Assembly (NCBI RefSeq): GCF_013179735.1
Contig: NZ_JABMEG010000001.1
Coordinates: 124,001-188,000, forward strand
DNA length: 64,000 nucleotides
From: Permianibacter fluminis
GTDB taxonomy: Bacteria > Pseudomonadota > Gammaproteobacteria > Enterobacterales > Permianibacteraceae
Direction of reading: 5' to 3'
The number at the start of each line of letters is the position of its first letter. Within the stretch, counting starts at the first letter, position 1. Under the pieces are notes generated by a model. The model was not told the origin of the DNA and did no database searches. It saw only the letters and a list, made by a program, of their open reading frames with translations. Of this stretch, positions 22,067 to 30,398 are shown one piece after another. A program made the translations under genes and the position numbers.

Positions 22067-22924
22067 TCAGACGACCACGGCGGCGCCGGGCGCGATGATG
22101 TTGAGCACTTGCATGGCGCAGTCGCGCGCCGAAGTGAGCGCTTCTTTGAGCAGCACCGTGTCGGCGCTGGCCAGTTGCAGCCGGTCGTTGCGCAGCGGCG
22201 CCAGCAGCGGGCTGTCGGCCTCCGGGCTGAACCCGGCCTGCAGATGGCGGGCGCCATACATGCCGACATGAACCAGCGCGCAGGCCACCCGCTCGCCGTT
22301 GGCTGCCTCCGGTTCATGCTGATGCCGCACCACCTCGGTCAGACTGGTCGGCAAGCGCCATAGCGTCATCAGCGCGTGACCCAGATCAGCTACCCGGAAG
22401 CCGAAGCTGGCCTGTTCCAGATCGGGCCGAATGCCGCCTTCGGCTTTCTGCAGCATTGCGGCACATTCACTCGGCGCCTGTTCCAGCAACACCAACAGGC
22501 CGATGTTGTGCAGCAGGCCGGCGGCGAACAAGCGCTCGCCTTGACGAAAGCCGCTGCGCCGGCCGAGGCCGCGGGCGATCAGGCCGGTATAGACGCTGTG
22601 CTCCCAGAACTTGTCCATGTCCATCAGCTCGCGCGGCACCCGCTGGAAGGCCGCCACGGCCGAGGTGGCCAGCGCCAGGTTGTACAGCTCGTTGGTGCCG
22701 ATCAGCCGAACTGCCCGCGACACCGACTCGACCTGGGCCGGAAAGTTGTAGAACGAGCTGTTGGCCAGCCGCAGCAGCCGGGCGGTCAACGCCGGATCGA
22801 GCGCAATCAGGTCGGCGATTTCCAGCACGCTGGCCTGACGGGCGATCAACTCCTGCAGCCGCAGGCAGATATCCGGCAAGCTGTACAGCCGGCCGGCTTG
22901 GCGCACCAACTCGTTCAGATTCAT
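22067..22924 (-). CDS. HDOD domain protein
   Basis: The protein has 285 residues and is a single HDOD domain (about residues 15-205), a degenerate HD-type fold used in signalling. Features include LDPALTARLLRLANSSFYNF, AVRLIGTNELYNLAL and a C-terminal alpha segment. HDOD proteins often work with diguanylate cyclases or in chemotaxis and motility control. It is divergent from the hybrid histidine kinase across about 200 bp, so the two may share regulation. Confidence 0.9.
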   Translation of the reverse strand: MNLNELVRQAGRLYSLPDICLRLQELIARQASVLEIADLIALDPALTARLLRLANSSFYNFPAQVESVSRAVRLIGTNELYNLALATSAVAAFQRVPRELMDMDKFWEHSVYTGLIARGLGRRSGFRQGERLFAAGLLHNIGLLVLLEQAPSECAAMLQKAEGGIRPDLEQASFGFRVADLGHALMTLWRLPTSLTEVVRHQHEPEAANGERVACALVHVGMYGARHLQAGFSPEADSPLLAPLRNDRLQLASADTVLLKEALTSARDCAMQVLNIIAPGAAVVV

Positions 22925-23126: not shown

Positions 23127-26100
23127 ATGATGCGTGCGGTACCGAATTTGACTTGGCTGGCCTCGAGCGCGGCCCTCAAGCGCCTGTTGCTGGCGTTGAC
23201 GCTGCTGCCCGGTGCAACCATGGCGGTAGAAACGGTGGCGTTTCGCCATCTCGACAGCCGCGCCGGGCTGCCGCAGAACTCAGTGACCAGCATCGTGCAG
23301 GACCACGATGGCTACGTCTGGCTTGGCACATTCGATGGCCTGCAACGTTACGACGGTTATCAATTCCAGAGCTACCGCAACGATCCGCGCGCGCCAAACA
23401 CGCTGACCGACAACATGGTGCTGGCACTCGCCGAAGACAGTCACGGCGAACTGTGGATTGGCACCCAGAATGGCCTGAACCGATTCAGCGCCGACCGCCA
23501 GCAACTGACCCGCTTCGTGCCGTCCGATGCGCCGGGCGCAATCAGCCATCGCCGCATCAACACGCTGTTTCGCGATCGCCAGGATCGGCTCTGGATTGGC
23601 ACGCCACGCGGCATCGATGTTTACCGGCGCGAACAAAATGATTTTCTGCATTACCAGCATAACCCGCTCGATCGCGACAGCATTCCGGCCGGCTTCGTCA
23701 ATGCTTTTGCCGAATCCGCCGATGGTCGTATCTGGATCGGTGCCGCGACGCTGGCCCGGTTGAATCCCGTCGACGACAGCCTCGAACAATTTCCGCTGAC
23801 CAGCAAAAGCGGCACGGTGCCGCAGCAAATCACCGCGCTGTGGAGCGATGCCGACAATGGCGTCTGGGTCGGCACGCTGAGCAACGGCCTGTTCTATCTG
23901 GCGCCAGAGGCCAAACAATTCCGTCACTACCGCTATGATCCGCATGATCCGCTGAGTTTGCCCAGCAATGCCGTGCGCTCGCTGCTGCGTGATCGCGGTG
24001 GCCGTTTGTGGATCGGTACTGAAGGTGGCGGTCTGGCGCGCCTGTTGCCGGATGGCTCCGGCTTTGATGTGTTCCGGCGCAACGGCGCTGATCCACACAG
24101 CATCAGCTTTGATGAAATCGATGCCCTGCACGAAGACCGTACCGGGCTGCTGTGGATTGGCACGCTCGGCGGCGGCGTCAACACCACGCACCCGGAACGC
24201 ACTGCGATCGGCCGGGTCATTCATTCGCCGTATCAACCGAACTCGTTGTCGGATCCGTTTGTCTGGCAATTGGCCCGCGATAAACAAGACAACATCTGGA
24301 TTGCCACGCTGGCCGGACTCGATCACCTGAATCCGGGTACCGGCGAAGTGGTGCACTACGTCAACTTCAGTGACCGCGATGGCAGCGTGTTCCCGCCGCG
24401 CTTGCAGGCCTTGTTGGTGGATCGCAAACAGCGAGTCTGGCTCGGCAGCACGACCGGGGAACTGGCGGTTTTTGATCCGGCCACCTTGCGCACCGAAATC
24501 ATCAGCCATCCGGCCATGAGTCGCGGCAAGCTCAGCAGCTACCGGATTTTTCTCATCAGCGAAGACAGCAAAGGCCGGATCTGGGTCGGCGTCGGTGAAG
24601 GCGTGCTGGAAATCGATCCGGAACGACTGGAAGTGCTGCGCAGTTTTCCGGTCAACGAAGAAGGCTTTCCGCGGGCACTGGTGCGGGTCATGGCGGAAAT
24701 TGACGGCCAGTTGTTCTTCGGCACCCAAGGCGCCGGTTTGCAGCGTTTTGATTACGACAGCCGCGCCGTGCGCAGTTTCAGTCACCGCGATGACGACCCG
24801 CGCAGCCTGTCCAATGATGTCGTGCGCGCGATTTACACCGACCCCAGTGGCGACGTCTGGATCGGCACCCAGAACGGCCTGAATCGCTGGCGCGCGGCCG
24901 ATCGCCGGGCCGGCGCTGAACGCTTTGATTCCTGGTTTGTTGCCGACGGTCTGCCCAACAGCGTGATCTACGCCATTCAACCGGATGGCAACGGCAAACT
25001 CTGGCTCAGTACCAATGCCGGTCTCGCCGAATTCGATCCGGTCGCCAACAGCTTCCGCCGCTTTGATCAAAGCGATGGCTTGCCAACCAACGAATTCAAC
25101 GGCCTCGCCGCCACCCGCACCAGCGATGGTCGACTCTGGTTTGGCGGCACCACCGGCATCGCCGTGCTGGAGCCGCGCAATCTGCGCGGCAGCACCAGCG
25201 CGGTCGGCACCCTGATTACCGGGTTTGAGGTTCGCAATCCGGACAATCAGCCGCTGCGCCAACAGCAGAACGAATGGCAGCTGGCCGCGGATCAGAACGA
25301 CGTGCATCTGCAGTTTGCAGCGCTCGATTATCGCGATCCGCAAAAGAACCAGTTTGTCTGGCGCATGAGCGGTTTGCAGAAAGACTGGACCAGCAATGGC
25401 AACCGCAATGAATTGCGACTGACCAATCTCAACCCCGGCCATTATCTGTTTGAAGTGCGCAACGCCAATGCCGATGGCGTCTGGAGCGCCACGCCGGTGC
25501 AGCTGCGCTTTTTCATTCAGGCGCCGTGGTTTGCCCGCTGGTACAGCTACCTGAGCTATGCCCTGCTGCTGCTGCTGGCGGCGTGGTGGCTGTGGCGCAG
25601 CCATATCCGGAAAGTGGCGGCGCAAAAACGCATCAACGATCAGCTGCGCCGCATTGACCAACTGAAAGACGAGTTTCTCGCCAACACCTCGCACGAACTG
25701 CGGACGCCGCTGAACGGCATCATTGGCGTTGCCGAATCGCTGCGCGATGGCGTTGCCGGGGAAATGAATGACCGGGCGCGCGATCATCTGGCCCTCATCG
25801 CCGACAGCGGCCGCCGACTGGCCCATCTGGTCAACGAAATTCTGGATTTCAAAAAGCTGTCGCACGGCAGCGTTGCTCTGGAGCGCAGCCCGACCGATTT
25901 GCAAGCCTCGGTCGCGGTGGTGCTGGCGCTGTCACGGCCGCTCGCTGGTGACAAGGACTTGGCGCTGGTCAATGCGGTGCCGGCCGACTTTCCACCGCTC
26001 GATGCCGATGAAAATCGGCTCGAGCAGATTTTGCATAATCTGGTTGGCAATGCGGTCAAGTTCACGCCGCAGGGTCATGTCACCGTGACCGCGCGCGTGG

Positions 26101-27563
26101 TCGATGGCATGGCGGAAATTCAGGTGGCGGATTCCGGTATCGGTATTGCGACCGATCAGCTGGACCGCATTTTTCTGCCGTTCGAGCAAGTGGCCGAAGC
26201 CAACACCCGCCGGCATGGCGGCACCGGCCTCGGTCTGGCAGTGGTGAAAAAACTGGTGGAATTGCACGGCGGCAAAGTGGCGGTGCATTCGCTGGAAGGC
26301 AACGGCTCGCAATTCAGTTTCACCTTGCCGCTGGCGAGTGCCGGTGCCCAGGTCAAGAAGGCTCGCAGCGAACCGGCCGCGCCCGGTAAATTGCTGCCGC
26401 TGCGCAAAGCGATCGCGGCACCGATACTCGGCAACGCCGCGACCATTCTGGTTGCCGACGACGAACCATTGAACTGTCAGGTGGTCGCCGATTGCCTGAG
26501 CATGCAGGGTTACAACATCGTCACTGTTGGTGACGGTCAGGCGGCGATCGATGCGCTCGGCCAGCAGGCGTTCAGTTTGCTGATTCTCGATGTGATGATG
26601 CCGAAACTGTCCGGCTTCGATGTTGCCCGCCGGGTGCGTGAGACGTTCAGTCAGCAGGAGTTGCCGATTCTGATGCTGTCGGCGCGCAACCGACCTGAAG
26701 ACGTGGCCACCGGTCTCGCCGCCGGCGCCAACGATTACATCGGCAAGCCGGTCGAGCGTAGCGAACTGGTGGCGCGGGTGAAAAACCTGCTGGCGCTGCA
26801 CGAGGTCAACGCCGCCAGGCGCGAGCGCGAACAAGCCCGCGTGGTGCAGGAAACTGTCAACCGGCTGGCCCGCTATTTTCCGCCGCCGCTGGTGCAGCGA
26901 CTGCTGGCCGATCCGGATGCCAAACAGCTACAAGCCGAACGGCGCCGGCTCACCGTGCTGTTTGCCGATCTGGTCGAATTCACCGCGCTGACCGACCGCT
27001 TCGAACCGGAGATCATCACCGACTTGCTGAATCAATTCCTCGGCGGCATGGGCGCGCTGGTGGAAAAATTTGGCGGCACCTTGAACGAGTTACTCGGTGA
27101 CGGTCTGGTGGTGTTGTTCGGCGCGCCCGAAACGATGGAAAAAGAAGATCAGGCCGAGCGCGCGGTCGCGCTGGCAGTGGCGATGCAACGGGAAATGCAA
27201 CGCTTGCAGCGCAGCTGGCTGGATGCCGGCATCGATCACAACATCAAGCTGCGGATCGGCATTCACCAGGACTTTGCCACGGTCGGCAATTTCGGCTCCG
27301 GTCTGGTGCTCGCCTATCGCGCAGTCGGCAGCGGCGTCAATTTGGCAGCGCGGTTGCAGGCACATTGCGAACCCGGCCGAGTGCTGGTCAGCTATCCGGT
27401 GTTTGCCTTGACCCGGGATCGCTATCCGTTCGAACCGCTGCAGGAAATTGCCGTCAAGGGCTTTGGTCACGCCCACCGGGTCTGTGAATTGCAACCGGAA
27501 AAAGTGTCTGAAGCGCGGCTGAAACTGATCGCCGGCGGCGACTCGGCTGATCCGGCTAATTGA
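23127..27563 (+). CDS. Propeller-type hybrid histidine kinase fused to receiver and class III nucleotide cyclase
   Basis: The protein has 1478 residues. Order: signal peptide (1-34); two seven-bladed-type propellers (~40-700) made of repeats such as GYVWLGTFDGLQRYDG; Y_Y_Y domain (~725-800); TM helix (~806-826); HisKA with His856 in SHELRTPLNG; HATPase with DSGIGIA and GGTGLGL; receiver (~1105-1220) with Asp1155; then a class III cyclase domain (~1270-1460). In the cyclase both metal aspartates (Asp1281, Asp1325) and the transition-state pair Asn1405/Arg1409 are present. The purine-selecting positions are Glu1321 (Lys in adenylate cyclases, Glu in guanylate cyclases) and Arg1398 (normally Asp, Thr or Cys). 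So it looks catalytically competent but its substrate cannot be predicted. No separate response regulator is adjacent. Confidence 0.93.
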   Translation: MMRAVPNLTWLASSAALKRLLLALTLLPGATMAVETVAFRHLDSRAGLPQNSVTSIVQDHDGYVWLGTFDGLQRYDGYQFQSYRNDPRAPNTLTDNMVLALAEDSHGELWIGTQNGLNRFSADRQQLTRFVPSDAPGAISHRRINTLFRDRQDRLWIGTPRGIDVYRREQNDFLHYQHNPLDRDSIPAGFVNAFAESADGRIWIGAATLARLNPVDDSLEQFPLTSKSGTVPQQITALWSDADNGVWVGTLSNGLFYLAPEAKQFRHYRYDPHDPLSLPSNAVRSLLRDRGGRLWIGTEGGGLARLLPDGSGFDVFRRNGADPHSISFDEIDALHEDRTGLLWIGTLGGGVNTTHPERTAIGRVIHSPYQPNSLSDPFVWQLARDKQDNIWIATLAGLDHLNPGTGEVVHYVNFSDRDGSVFPPRLQALLVDRKQRVWLGSTTGELAVFDPATLRTEIISHPAMSRGKLSSYRIFLISEDSKGRIWVGVGEGVLEIDPERLEVLRSFPVNEEGFPRALVRVMAEIDGQLFFGTQGAGLQRFDYDSRAVRSFSHRDDDPRSLSNDVVRAIYTDPSGDVWIGTQNGLNRWRAADRRAGAERFDSWFVADGLPNSVIYAIQPDGNGKLWLSTNAGLAEFDPVANSFRRFDQSDGLPTNEFNGLAATRTSDGRLWFGGTTGIAVLEPRNLRGSTSAVGTLITGFEVRNPDNQPLRQQQNEWQLAADQNDVHLQFAALDYRDPQKNQFVWRMSGLQKDWTSNGNRNELRLTNLNPGHYLFEVRNANADGVWSATPVQLRFFIQAPWFARWYSYLSYALLLLLAAWWLWRSHIRKVAAQKRINDQLRRIDQLKDEFLANTSHELRTPLNGIIGVAESLRDGVAGEMNDRARDHLALIADSGRRLAHLVNEILDFKKLSHGSVALERSPTDLQASVAVVLALSRPLAGDKDLALVNAVPADFPPLDADENRLEQILHNLVGNAVKFTPQGHVTVTARVVDGMAEIQVADSGIGIATDQLDRIFLPFEQVAEANTRRHGGTGLGLAVVKKLVELHGGKVAVHSLEGNGSQFSFTLPLASAGAQVKKARSEPAAPGKLLPLRKAIAAPILGNAATILVADDEPLNCQVVADCLSMQGYNIVTVGDGQAAIDALGQQAFSLLILDVMMPKLSGFDVARRVRETFSQQELPILMLSARNRPEDVATGLAAGANDYIGKPVERSELVARVKNLLALHEVNAARREREQARVVQETVNRLARYFPPPLVQRLLADPDAKQLQAERRRLTVLFADLVEFTALTDRFEPEIITDLLNQFLGGMGALVEKFGGTLNELLGDGLVVLFGAPETMEKEDQAERAVALAVAMQREMQRLQRSWLDAGIDHNIKLRIGIHQDFATVGNFGSGLVLAYRAVGSGVNLAARLQAHCEPGRVLVSYPVFALTRDRYPFEPLQEIAVKGFGHAHRVCELQPEKVSEARLKLIAGGDSADPAN

Positions 27564-27656: not shown

Positions 27657-28205
27657 CTAGTGAATGTTGTAGTGATGCGGATCGTAATCGCGATTGTGTT
27701 TGGCTTTGACCAGCAGCGCCTGCAAATCCTTTACCCGAACGTTGGCCTCTTCGATTTGCTGCGCCGTCAAATCAGGCGCGTGCAGCTTTTGCTTGCGCTT
27801 GCCGGCGCTGTCGCCATTGCTCGCCGCCAGCAGGAACCAGGCGTAGCCTTCGACCGGGTTCTGGGCAACGTAGTCGCCGTTCCAGTACATGGCACCGACA
27901 TTGTGTTGCGCCGTCGTGTGGCCGCGCAGTGCCGCTTCAAAAAACAGCGCAAATGCGCGGCGATAGCTTTGTCCAATACCGGAACTCTCCGGCGGGTCGT
28001 AGTGCATTAGCCCCAGCTGAAAGAGTGCATCGACATTACCGAGCTCGGCGTGATGGCGGAGACGGGCAAAATCTGCCAGATAGATATACTGGTAGGGCAT
28101 GCTCTCATTCTCACGGTCGCTCGGCGTTGCTTGCGCCGGCGCGACCGGAATCGCGCTGACCAGCACCAAAGCCAATGCCATGCCTATGCCCTGCTTCACA
28201 GTCAT
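27657..28205 (-). CDS. Secreted Sel1-repeat protein
   Basis: The protein has 182 residues with a signal peptide (MTVKQGIGMALALVLVSAIPVAPAQA). Sel1/TPR-like helical repeats follow: LGNVDALFQLGLMHYD, RGHTTAQHNVGAMYWNGDYV and GYAWFLLAASNGDSAGKRK. Such repeats usually bind proteins, here in the periplasm. ATG 28205 begins the signal peptide; ATG 28220 is possible. It lies between the cyclase-fusion kinase and the CRP-like gene on the opposite strand; no functional tie is shown. Confidence 0.8.
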   Translation of the reverse strand: MTVKQGIGMALALVLVSAIPVAPAQATPSDRENESMPYQYIYLADFARLRHHAELGNVDALFQLGLMHYDPPESSGIGQSYRRAFALFFEAALRGHTTAQHNVGAMYWNGDYVAQNPVEGYAWFLLAASNGDSAGKRKQKLHAPDLTAQQIEEANVRVKDLQALLVKAKHNRDYDPHHYNIH

Positions 28206-28337
28206 AACCTCAATTATCATTACCCTGTCAGTCTAGGGCGGGGGACTGCCCCTGCCCAGCTGTACTTTGCCAATGCTATGGTGTGCACTATTTACGTTGT
28301 CCCTCATGGCCCATCTGCGGTCTTGTAAGGAACCCTT

Positions 28338-29018
28338 ATGACAGACGCTTCGGCCACCCCCACGGACATGGAACTGGCAACTTTCAAGATATTCAATGGC
28401 CTGTCGCCCGAGCAGATGACCCAGCTCGGCCGCCACATCCATATCCGCAACTACCCGAAGCGAACCCAGATCATCAGCGAGGGCGATCCGGCCCATTGCC
28501 TGTATTTCGTCTTGTCCGGTCGGGTCAAGGTCTATCTGGACGACGAGAAGGGCAAGGAAATCACCGTCAACATTCACGAAGGCGGCGAAGTCTTTGGCGA
28601 GCTGTCGGTGATCCAGGGCATTCCGCGTTCGGCCTCGGTGGTCACGATGGACGACAGCCGGCTCGGCCTGATGTCGGATCAGGATTTCAAGCAATGCTTG
28701 CGCGACTACCCCGACTTCACCGCCAACGTCATGAGCGATCTGATCGATCGCCTGTTGCAGGCAACCGAGACCATTCGCCGGCTGGGTCTGATGGATGTGT
28801 ATGGCCGTATCGCGGTGCTGCTGTTGACCCAATCGGAAGAGAAGGACGGCCAGCGGGTGATGAAGGAAAAACTGACCCAGCAGAGTATCGCCAGTCGGGT
28901 TGGCGCCTCGCGGGAAATGGTTGCCCGCATCCTCAAGGATCTGAAGCTGGGCGGCTATGTCGATACGGATGCTGACGGCCATCTGGTGCTGAAGAAAAAC
29001 CTGCCGCACTCCTGGTAA
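28338..29018 (+). CDS. CRP/FNR family transcription regulator
   Basis: The protein has 226 residues. The cyclic-nucleotide-binding fold is complete: the phosphate-binding cassette FGELSVIQGIPRSASVV keeps the Glu and the Arg-Ser that bind cAMP in E. coli CRP. There are no FNR-type N-terminal cysteines. The C-terminal winged helix-turn-helix QQSIASRVGASREMVARIL is intact. So it is likely a ligand-responsive regulator. It starts 775 bp after the nucleotide-cyclase fusion gene and has its own terminator. Its targets are unknown. Confidence 0.93.
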   Translation: MTDASATPTDMELATFKIFNGLSPEQMTQLGRHIHIRNYPKRTQIISEGDPAHCLYFVLSGRVKVYLDDEKGKEITVNIHEGGEVFGELSVIQGIPRSASVVTMDDSRLGLMSDQDFKQCLRDYPDFTANVMSDLIDRLLQATETIRRLGLMDVYGRIAVLLLTQSEEKDGQRVMKEKLTQQSIASRVGASREMVARILKDLKLGGYVDTDADGHLVLKKNLPHSW

Positions 29019-29542: not shown

Positions 29543-30262
29543 TCAGCGCTTTTTCATTGCCGCTTTGGCCTCGGCAAAATTGAGTTGGCCATTCAGCAGT
29601 GCCCGGCCCACCACCACACCGGCCAGCGCCGATTGCGGCGCCTTGCGCAAATTGGCAATCGCGTCCAGATCATGAATGCCGCCGTTGCAGAACACCGGAA
29701 TGTCACAAGCCTGCGCCAACCGGCCAGCCGGCAGCAAGGGATCCGTGCGTTCGCCGGGGGCATGCAGCTCGGTGTAGAAAATCCCGGCCACACCTTCCTC
29801 GCTGTAGCGCCGGGCCAATTCATCGGCCGCGACGGCTACTCCGCCGCCGTTTTGCACCATGCCGTCACGCGCCTCCAGCGCCACCACCACCGAGCCCGGA
29901 TACTCGGCACAGAGATCGCCGGTGGCTTCCGGATTGCGCAGCAGCTTCCAGGTCAGCACGACAAAACTGGCACCGACATCGAGCCACAATTCCGCATGCT
30001 CGATTTTGCGCACGCCGCCGGTGATTTCGATTGCCAGTTTCGGAAATTCCTTGTGCAGCCGCTGGACGATATCGGTATTGACCGGTTCGCTGTCCTGGGC
30101 GCCGTCAGCGTCGATCAGGTGCACGCGCTCGGCGCCGGCGGCGACCAGTGTGCCAATCGTTTCCAGCGCATCCAGATAGAGCAGCGGCTCGTCATCATCA
30201 GGTTTGGGATTGGGCAAAGCGATGTGTGCGTTGCGTAACTCCAATCCCGGAATCAGCAGCAT
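29543..30262 (-). CDS. HisA-like (beta/alpha)8 protein with altered active site
   Basis: The protein has 239 residues and resembles HisA, the phosphoribosyl-ProFAR isomerase of histidine synthesis. The phosphate-binding loops are kept (EITGGVRK, CNGGIHDLDAI and GVVVGRAL), as is VHLIDADGA. But the two catalytic aspartates are changed: LLIPGLELR has Glu8 where HisA has Asp8, and VVVALEARDG has Glu130 at the second Asp. No other his genes are nearby. It is probably a paralogue with a different or reduced activity. ATG 30262 matches the family start. Confidence 0.8.
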   Translation of the reverse strand: MLLIPGLELRNAHIALPNPKPDDDEPLLYLDALETIGTLVAAGAERVHLIDADGAQDSEPVNTDIVQRLHKEFPKLAIEITGGVRKIEHAELWLDVGASFVVLTWKLLRNPEATGDLCAEYPGSVVVALEARDGMVQNGGGVAVAADELARRYSEEGVAGIFYTELHAPGERTDPLLPAGRLAQACDIPVFCNGGIHDLDAIANLRKAPQSALAGVVVGRALLNGQLNFAEAKAAMKKR

Positions 30263-30398
30263 GGTTGCCCCCACGGTTATCCATCACTCGGTGTCGTTGG
30301 GTGCCGCTGGCCTTGGCACCGAACAAGATGAAGCAAGTGTAGTCGGTCAAATAGACCCGGGGCAGCCGCGCGCCGCTGGCCGGTCCTGGCCGATCCTG

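Follow-up and report, generated by a model that had tools for sequence, protein, structure and literature searches.

A propeller-sensing hybrid kinase-cyclase and its co-inherited CRP-type regulator: a candidate cyclic GMP circuit in Permianibacter fluminis

The cyanobacterial adenylate cyclase CyaC is activated by autophosphorylation and phosphotransfer (PMC1183210, PMC4284465), and it is a precedent for a protein encoded in a 64,000-nucleotide stretch of Permianibacter fluminis (contig NZ_JABMEG010000001.1, positions 124,001 to 188,000; the whole stretch is hereafter the window). The window protein joins a periplasmic propeller sensor, a histidine kinase, a receiver and a class III nucleotide cyclase in a single chain of 1478 residues. 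CyaC of Spirulina and Anabaena is laid out as kinase, receiver and cyclase and is not known to have a periplasmic propeller, and both proteins combine a class III cyclase with a kinase and a receiver; an initial annotation of this DNA had presented the chain as a candidate for an undescribed signalling system, but the architecture by itself has this forerunner. Unlike CyaC, which has Lys and Thr at the two base-reading positions of the cyclase, the window chain has Glu and Arg, together with a co-inherited CRP-type partner. The reading favored here, at a probability of about 0.55, is that the chain is a one-protein receptor turning a periplasmic signal into a messenger, most likely cyclic GMP (cGMP), that is read by its own CRP-type transcription factor; the circuit is proposed to be separate from the cell's normal cyclic AMP (cAMP)-CRP system.

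In its order of Reg_prop, Y_Y_Y, HisKA, HATPase and receiver the chain is like the propeller hybrid two-component systems (HTCS), which differ in having a DNA-binding output in place of a cyclase. For the cyclase domain, the best match in both sequence (6.4e-41) and structure is Pseudomonas aeruginosa CyaB, though CyaB carries Lys/Thr as base-reading residues and its N-terminal part differs from that of the window chain; Spirulina CyaC and then Synechocystis Cya2 follow in sequence closeness. Cya2 shares the Glu at the first position (motif GGTIDEFMGDG, compared to GGTLNELLGDG in the window) but differs at the second, Gly against Arg, and in its CHASE2 sensor (PMC5995499). Guanylate cyclases linked to a cyclic-nucleotide (cNMP)-binding effector have been described in Rhodospirillum centenum (cGMP-CgrA) and Xanthomonas (XC_0250-XC_0249; PMC4681086, PMC3770947). 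CgrA, like the partner found here, is a CRP homologue; XC_0250 differs from the window cyclase in having Ala at a substrate-specifying position, Leu and Ala in place of the Asn and Arg, and a TPR architecture, and XC_0249 is a GGDEF protein. In Pycsar (PycC with PycTIR or PycTM) a class III cyclase is likewise paired with a cNMP-binding effector, with kinship evident from hidden Markov models, but at the locus here the cyclase is fused to a sensor kinase and the regulator is of a DNA-binding type, with no TIR or membrane effector among the neighbors scanned. Literature searches found no paper on a propeller-kinase-cyclase or on an Aliikangiella cyclase, and as far as that literature was searched the propeller-kinase-cyclase chain, its Glu/Arg code and its co-inherited CRP-type partner are new.

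Domain architecture of the hybrid kinase-cyclase

23127..27563, + strand: hybrid sensor kinase-cyclase, 1478 residues (ATG start, open reading frame (ORF) without internal stop, Pfam)
23127..25604, + strand: N-terminal hydrophobic stretch, Reg_prop propeller repeats, Y_Y_Y and a hydrophobic (membrane) helix at about residues 806-826 (Pfam; both hydrophobic stretches judged by eye)
25665..26336, + strand: kinase core, HisKA (H856) and HATPase_c (Pfam, key residues)
26445..26783, + strand: receiver domain with phospho-acceptor D1155 (Pfam, key residues)
26784..26921, + strand: receiver-cyclase linker (NAARREREQ...LARYFPPPLVQRLL; assigned by eye)
26946..27467, + strand: class III nucleotide cyclase with E1321, R1398 and S1402, metal Asp D1281 and D1325, N1405 and R1409 (Pfam, alignment, predicted structure)

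All Pfam domains of the chain scored above their curated cut-offs, including Reg_prop (195.3 bits), Y_Y_Y (residues 734-797), HisKA (847-914), HATPase_c (961-1070), Response_reg (1107-1219), and Guanylate_cyc (1274-1447, 6.7e-18). H856 lies within SHELRTPL, N and G boxes follow, D1155 lies within LDVMMP and a Lys within GKPV, motifs that we take to be the signatures of a histidine kinase and a receiver. The features of a hybrid histidine kinase (a HisKA His, ATP-binding boxes and a receiver Asp) thus occur in a single chain, and the proposal that phosphorelay and second-messenger output share one polypeptide is supported by the Pfam domains and by the kinase, receiver and cyclase residues. The linker between receiver and cyclase is, from its sequence, a probable signal-transducing helix. 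At one locus, an orthologue of the cyclase gene adjoins a propeller hybrid kinase with an AraC-type output, an HTCS (L058:5840-9904), which suggests output-domain exchange among propeller kinases.

Base-reading residues of the cyclase

The cyclase domain was aligned with the sequences of solved class III structures (CyaB, CyaC and Cya2). E1321 stands four residues before the metal Asp D1325 and aligns with Lys in CyaB and CyaC and with Glu in Cya2, while R1398, at the second base-contact position, aligns with Thr in CyaB and CyaC and with Gly in Cya2; all six positions singled out by the initial annotation (D1281, E1321, D1325, R1398, N1405, R1409) proved correct in sequence and alignment. The domain has the sequence and predicted structural features of a class III cyclase, with the fold and Guanylate_cyc match, two metal Asp, and the transition-state Asn and Arg. 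At the first base-reading position it has the Glu of guanylate cyclases, and the adenylate cyclase combination (Lys first; Asp, Thr or Ser second) is replaced by E1321 and R1398. S1402 stands in place of the usual Asp of GDxVN and was ruled out as a special mark of the enzyme; CyaB-like relatives carry G, R, K, A, T, S, H or Q there, and because so many of these neighbors vary at the position, S1402 alone is not odd.

An AlphaFold2 model of the domain, built on a 21-row alignment (predicted local distance difference test, pLDDT, 88.6; predicted template modeling score, pTM, 0.87), was compared with known structures using VIA-align. The highest Z was to CyaB (30.5; 1.2 Å, 196 aligned), followed by the catalytic domain of CyaC (29.1), the second-best structural match by entry family, Cya2 (27.2) and RhGC (26.4). 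The predicted fold is that of an ordinary class III catalytic domain and is silent on substrate.

Across an order-level sample of 394 genomes, which includes that of the window as well as Kangiellaceae (Aliikangiella, Pleionea), cyclase matches at ≤1e-25 occurred in 27 genomes. Orthologues were present in 21, the window's own genome among them, and the remaining six had a Lys-type cyclase as their top match. The 20 relatives (52–74% identity, E ≤1.4e-72) come from three families. All 21/21 orthologues share Glu 1321, Arg 1398, Ser 1402, R1409 and the two metal Asp, and N1405 is kept in 20/21. From the constancy of the metal Asp, R1409 and N1405 it follows that the cyclase domain is constrained as an enzyme, and the Glu/Arg pair, being invariant, is not a product of chance; the initial annotation was right to call it unusual. 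The four other class III cyclases in the window's genome all keep Lys at the first base-reading position. That the cyclase domain has degenerated into a regulatory module with no catalytic turnover, the output of the hybrid kinase passing through the receiver or a partner, is highly improbable. The changed base-reading residues and the Ile that replaces Asn1405 in one orthologue would fit such a loss, but it is opposed by the invariance of the metal Asp and R1409, by the Leu found at the Asn position of the active guanylate cyclase XC_0250 (PMC3770947), and by the constant pairing with a cNMP-binding regulator described below, which it leaves unexplained.

A scan of an 84,980-species collection, biased toward the Glu/Arg type because its patterns were drawn from the Glu/Arg orthologues, returned 23 loci, 19 of Glu/Arg/Ser type and four not, many of them overlapping the 394-genome order set. 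The 19 include loci from Aliikangiella, Pleionea, Kangiellaceae and a groundwater gammaproteobacterial bin. Wider searches covered 369 class-level genomes (matches at 1e-35) and 388 phylum-level genomes (matches at 1e-30). No further Glu/Arg pair was present in the 27/27 other class-level matches read, nor in the 28 new phylum-level loci read, from >150 matches. Glu occupies the first position in 4/27 of the other class-level matches, with Ala, Asp, Gly or Gly as the second residue. These four cyclases (L122, L127, L137, L140) form their own clade in the tree described next and are, by sequence, further guanylate cyclase candidates.

A tree built from 92 cyclase domains places the 21 Glu/Arg rows in a single clade (support 100/97). 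Its surroundings are a Lys/Thr cyclase (L110) at a fork supported by 95/78, three Gln/Thr sequences that group together (100/99) and the Arg/Thr fragment L112; with these the clade makes up a set of 26 rows (100/98), separate from the CyaB-like enzymes. As the nearest relatives carry Gln, Lys or Arg at the first position, the Glu probably arose separately from that of Cya2. The Lys/Thr branch next to the clade is a 7TMR-DISM receptor cyclase (L110:8399-10618) with Lys/Thr/Gly residues, and the fragment (L112:12-449), a partial cyclase from an Aminicenantes bin, has Arg at both the first base-reading position and the 1402 position.

A co-inherited CRP-type regulator and its proposed promoter element

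27657..28220, − strand: Sel1-repeat protein that starts with a hydrophobic stretch, encoded between the cyclase and regulator genes (Pfam, neighborhoods)
28282..28296, + strand: TGTGCACTATTTACG, the window copy of an element upstream of the regulator, 12/15 against the consensus TGTGTAATATTYACA (consensus scoring)
28338..29018, + strand: CRP/FNR-family regulator, 226 residues, cNMP_binding and Crp helix-turn-helix (HTH) domains (Pfam, searches)
29543..30274, − strand: HisA-like TIM barrel, neighbor of the regulator (profile scores, neighborhoods)

A gene for a CRP-type regulator lies ~0.8 kb downstream of the cyclase gene. This linked CRP-family receptor, which the initial annotation missed, is the strongest evidence for a distinct circuit, and from sequence the regulator is proposed to be the dedicated receptor of the cyclase product. 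It has the cNMP-binding domain with phosphate-binding motif and the Crp-type HTH that define the CRP/FNR family, and its pocket keeps the cNMP phosphate-binding core (FGEL...R[ST]A). On the CRP equivalog model it scores 126.9 bits against a cut-off of 266, failing as CRP proper, and the Thr-Ser of CRP is also absent: where E. coli CRP has Thr127-Ser128 in its C helix, 21/21 regulators have Ala-Thr, and two partners of Gln/Thr cyclases have Leu-Ser. The CRP/Vfr-like protein of the window's genome (L200), to which the comparison with the genome's cNMP proteins was confined (L202, L203 and L205 being left out), has Thr-Ser in its C helix, like E. coli CRP, and judged by sequence the regulator is distinct from it. 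The genome thus holds a CRP/Vfr-like receptor and four Lys-type class III cyclases alongside the cyclase-regulator pair.

These observations bear on whether the enzyme, despite its changed residues, is an adenylate cyclase whose cAMP joins the cell's general pool and acts through the ordinary CRP. Among solved relatives the adenylate cyclases CyaB and CyaC are nearest in both sequence and fold, and non-canonical residues occur in several class III enzymes. Such an enzyme is nonetheless improbable here, as Glu replaces the adenine-reading Lys in 21/21 orthologues, the genome's other four class III cyclases keep that Lys, and the gene travels with a CRP-type protein other than the CRP/Vfr-like one.

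Neighborhoods were compared for the window and 18 fetched regions (n = 19), and the gene order cyclase, Sel1, CRP-type regulator, HisA-like was conserved in 12 of them. When the 394 order genomes were searched for the regulator (at most seven candidates scored per genome), the 22 matches at 1e-30 comprised all 21 cyclase genomes and one other, G018, the only match among 373 non-cyclase genomes (34% identity, with neither the pocket motif nor the promoter element). Sel1, regulator and HisA-like genes occur together in 21/21 genomes, with the cyclase beside them in 12. In the nine genomes where cyclase and regulator are apart, both genes are kept (9/9) and the regulator retains its Sel1 and HisA-like neighbors (9/9), while no regulator, Sel1 or HisA-like gene was found at 1e-4 in the cyclase flanks (~10 kb per side where the contig allows). 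It is this co-occurrence that links the regulator to the cyclase; a naive Fisher test on it gives 6e-34, a value that is meaningless as a probability because of shared descent.

The two genes could instead have been inherited as baggage from a common ancestor with no functional link; in favor of this, the 21 genomes all belong to three families within a single order, and none of that order's other sampled families has the two genes together. This is very unlikely, given the retention of both genes in 9/9 genomes where they are apart and the adjacency of the pair in a related lineage whose gene order differs and whose kinase-cyclases have no propeller match. That lineage, also missed by the initial annotation, contains two histidine kinase-receiver-cyclases of 857 and 858 residues (L108, L208), which divergently adjoin members of the same CRP subfamily, ~40% identical to the window regulator (2/3 Gln/Thr loci). 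These loci (L208:6606-9961 and L108:2375-5701) have Gln/Thr as base residues, Lys/Arg at the 1402 position and a CRP-family protein with Leu-Ser in the C helix. The third Gln/Thr locus (L109:2151-3081) is uninformative on the pairing; a cyclase fragment stands there beside a transposase-like frame, and neither a kinase nor a receiver nor a CRP was matched. The contig is labeled Maribacter, and the locus has the look of a broken copy or of mixed sequence, perhaps from a mis-assigned bin.

Upstream of the regulator, a 15-bp element (consensus TGTGTAATATTYACA) was found in 21/21 genomes with 11 to 15 matches. At least 12 matches occurred in 20/21 regulator upstream regions compared to 1.7% of mononucleotide shuffles, for a consensus derived from the same upstream sequences that were scored. 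As an operator common to cyclase and regulator the element was ruled out, the cyclase upstream regions being without it. The classical CRP box TGTGA-N6-TCACA was likewise rejected, with a best score of 6 to 8/10 in the regions upstream of 18 cyclase and 12 regulator genes; 300 mononucleotide shuffles, made from the window's cyclase upstream region only, scored 6 to 9/10.

Of the remaining neighbors, the HisA-like protein scores 122 bits, far below the HisA cut-off of 243, and is probably a paralogue with another role. An HDOD protein (22067-22924), divergent from the cyclase gene, is kept in only 1/18 fetched neighborhoods, that of the same-genus genome G001.

Proposed circuit, its messenger and its possible output

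In the proposed circuit, the periplasmic propeller would, from its domain type, bind a ligand, and H856 would autophosphorylate and pass the phosphate to D1155 of the same chain, both residues being present. The receiver would then act through the linker helix on a dimeric cyclase, with CyaC as a precedent, and the cyclase would cyclize a nucleoside triphosphate, GTP being the most likely substrate and cGMP the product. By homology and chemistry, guanine would be read at N1/N2 by E1321 and possibly at O6/N7 by R1398 of the partner subunit. The CRP-family protein would bind the product and regulate genes, its own perhaps included.

The chemistry of Arg suits it well to reading guanine O6/N7, and Glu and Arg would together form a two-sided guanine reader. 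In Cya2 the substitution E488K alone yields an adenylate cyclase (PMC5995499), and in class III cyclases the contact of Glu with N1/N2 is held to be the main one, the second base position being variable and poorly conserved (PMC7384201), for which reason the reading that the enzyme works like a guanylate cyclase stands despite the Arg. The initial annotation gave the product as cGMP or an unusual nucleotide; these remain the right two options, with the comparison favoring cGMP and the Arg keeping the second possible.

Several observations weigh against a cGMP circuit of this kind. The second residue, Arg in 21/21, falls outside the residues listed for guanylate cyclases at this position (C, S, T, H, A or G; PMC4215837), the nearest relatives in the tree have Gln, Lys or Arg rather than Glu at the first, and the transition-state Asn is Ile in G002. 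The regulator lacks the Asn-Glu pair with which XC_0249 recognizes cGMP (PMC3770947), and Clr binds both cAMP and cGMP via a Thr-Thr motif (PMC10127613), so that Ala-Thr alone cannot tell the two nucleotides apart. The co-occurrence is phylogenetically clustered, and the independent events are therefore far fewer than 21; the regulator search also scored no more than seven candidates per genome. Finally, the promoter element is not upstream of the cyclase gene, where the best scores (8 to 11/15 in 18 regions) are in the shuffle range.

The same circuit, with the CRP-type protein as receptor, could also make a product that is neither cAMP nor cGMP (e.g. cUMP, cCMP or cIMP), which is unlikely but has some points in its favor. 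Base residues vary widely nearby in the tree (E/R, Q/T, R/T, K/T), and class III cyclases that use UTP and CTP exist with changed residues around the site (PMC11224242). The cyclase also matches PADLOC PycC models (best 1.3e-20) and the cNMP domain of the regulator matches PycTIR (1.2e-16), though such matches would be expected of any class III cyclase and cNMP domain. The CTP-reading residues of EaPycC, Arg142 and Gln144, fall by spacing arithmetic on E1321 and L1323, so that the Arg is at the first position and not the second and the EaPycC code is not shared (PMC11224242); this comparison covers EaPycC by spacing only, and other PycC clades use other residues. Further, in the characterized enzymes described by the cited sources guanine is specified by a carboxylate at the first position, and neither a PycTIR nor a PycTM-like effector was present beside the cyclase among the neighbors scanned (HDOD, GST, Sel1, CRP-type and HisA-like; more distant window genes lay outside the scan). 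A stronger form of this idea draws on the paired codes, in which a Glu/Arg cyclase goes with an Ala-Thr receptor and a Gln/Thr cyclase with a Leu-Ser receptor, with Arg/Thr further out: the base code would have changed in step with a dedicated receptor, and the messenger would be a new cyclic mononucleotide, neither cAMP nor cGMP, a rather improbable outcome.

Sites resembling the promoter element give a lead on a possible output. The near-consensus pattern TGTGNAATATTYACA, with one mismatch allowed, gave 67 sites in 11 genomes; a reversed pattern gave 24, and a second control with the same core gave 69 in nine genomes, compared to 64 real sites there, so that the pattern is not globally enriched. 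Loci were examined for 60/67 real sites, 10 of which precede the CRP-type gene and were set aside (n = 50), and for 54 control sites (24/24 reversed and 30/69 same-core). Real sites avoid genes, with 19/50 inside an ORF of at least 150 residues compared to 37/54 controls (Fisher p = 0.003). Among the matches listed, 8/50 real sites precede peptidases of the families S8 (4), M9 (2), M14 (1) and S9-like, compared to 0/54 control sites (p = 0.002), in a category chosen after the hits were known. Two of the S8 genes are orthologous and, counted once among the matches listed, give 7/49 (p = 0.004); two control genes encode intracellular peptidases (M24 and Lon-like), and counting any peptidase among the matches listed gives 8/50 against 2/54 (p = 0.046). 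Most of the eight site-linked peptidases carry a signal sequence, as judged by eye. The elements resembling the regulator promoter stand before subtilases, collagenases and a carboxypeptidase (L171, L175, L182, L190, L193, L236, L263) in genomes G254, G302, G366, G339 and G263. Secreted proteolysis as an output of the regulator is a post hoc lead from sequence and a hypothesis only.

The role of cGMP in bacterial signaling has been called poorly understood (PMC3770947), few bacterial cGMP circuits are documented, and the role of the second base position in class III cyclases is unsettled (PMC7384201). The invariant Glu/Arg clade, the Gln/Thr group and the co-inherited receptor together amount to a natural experiment, in which paired residues can be exchanged and the messenger identified. 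The chain also provides a defined case of a propeller-sensing hybrid kinase with a diffusible messenger as output instead of DNA binding.

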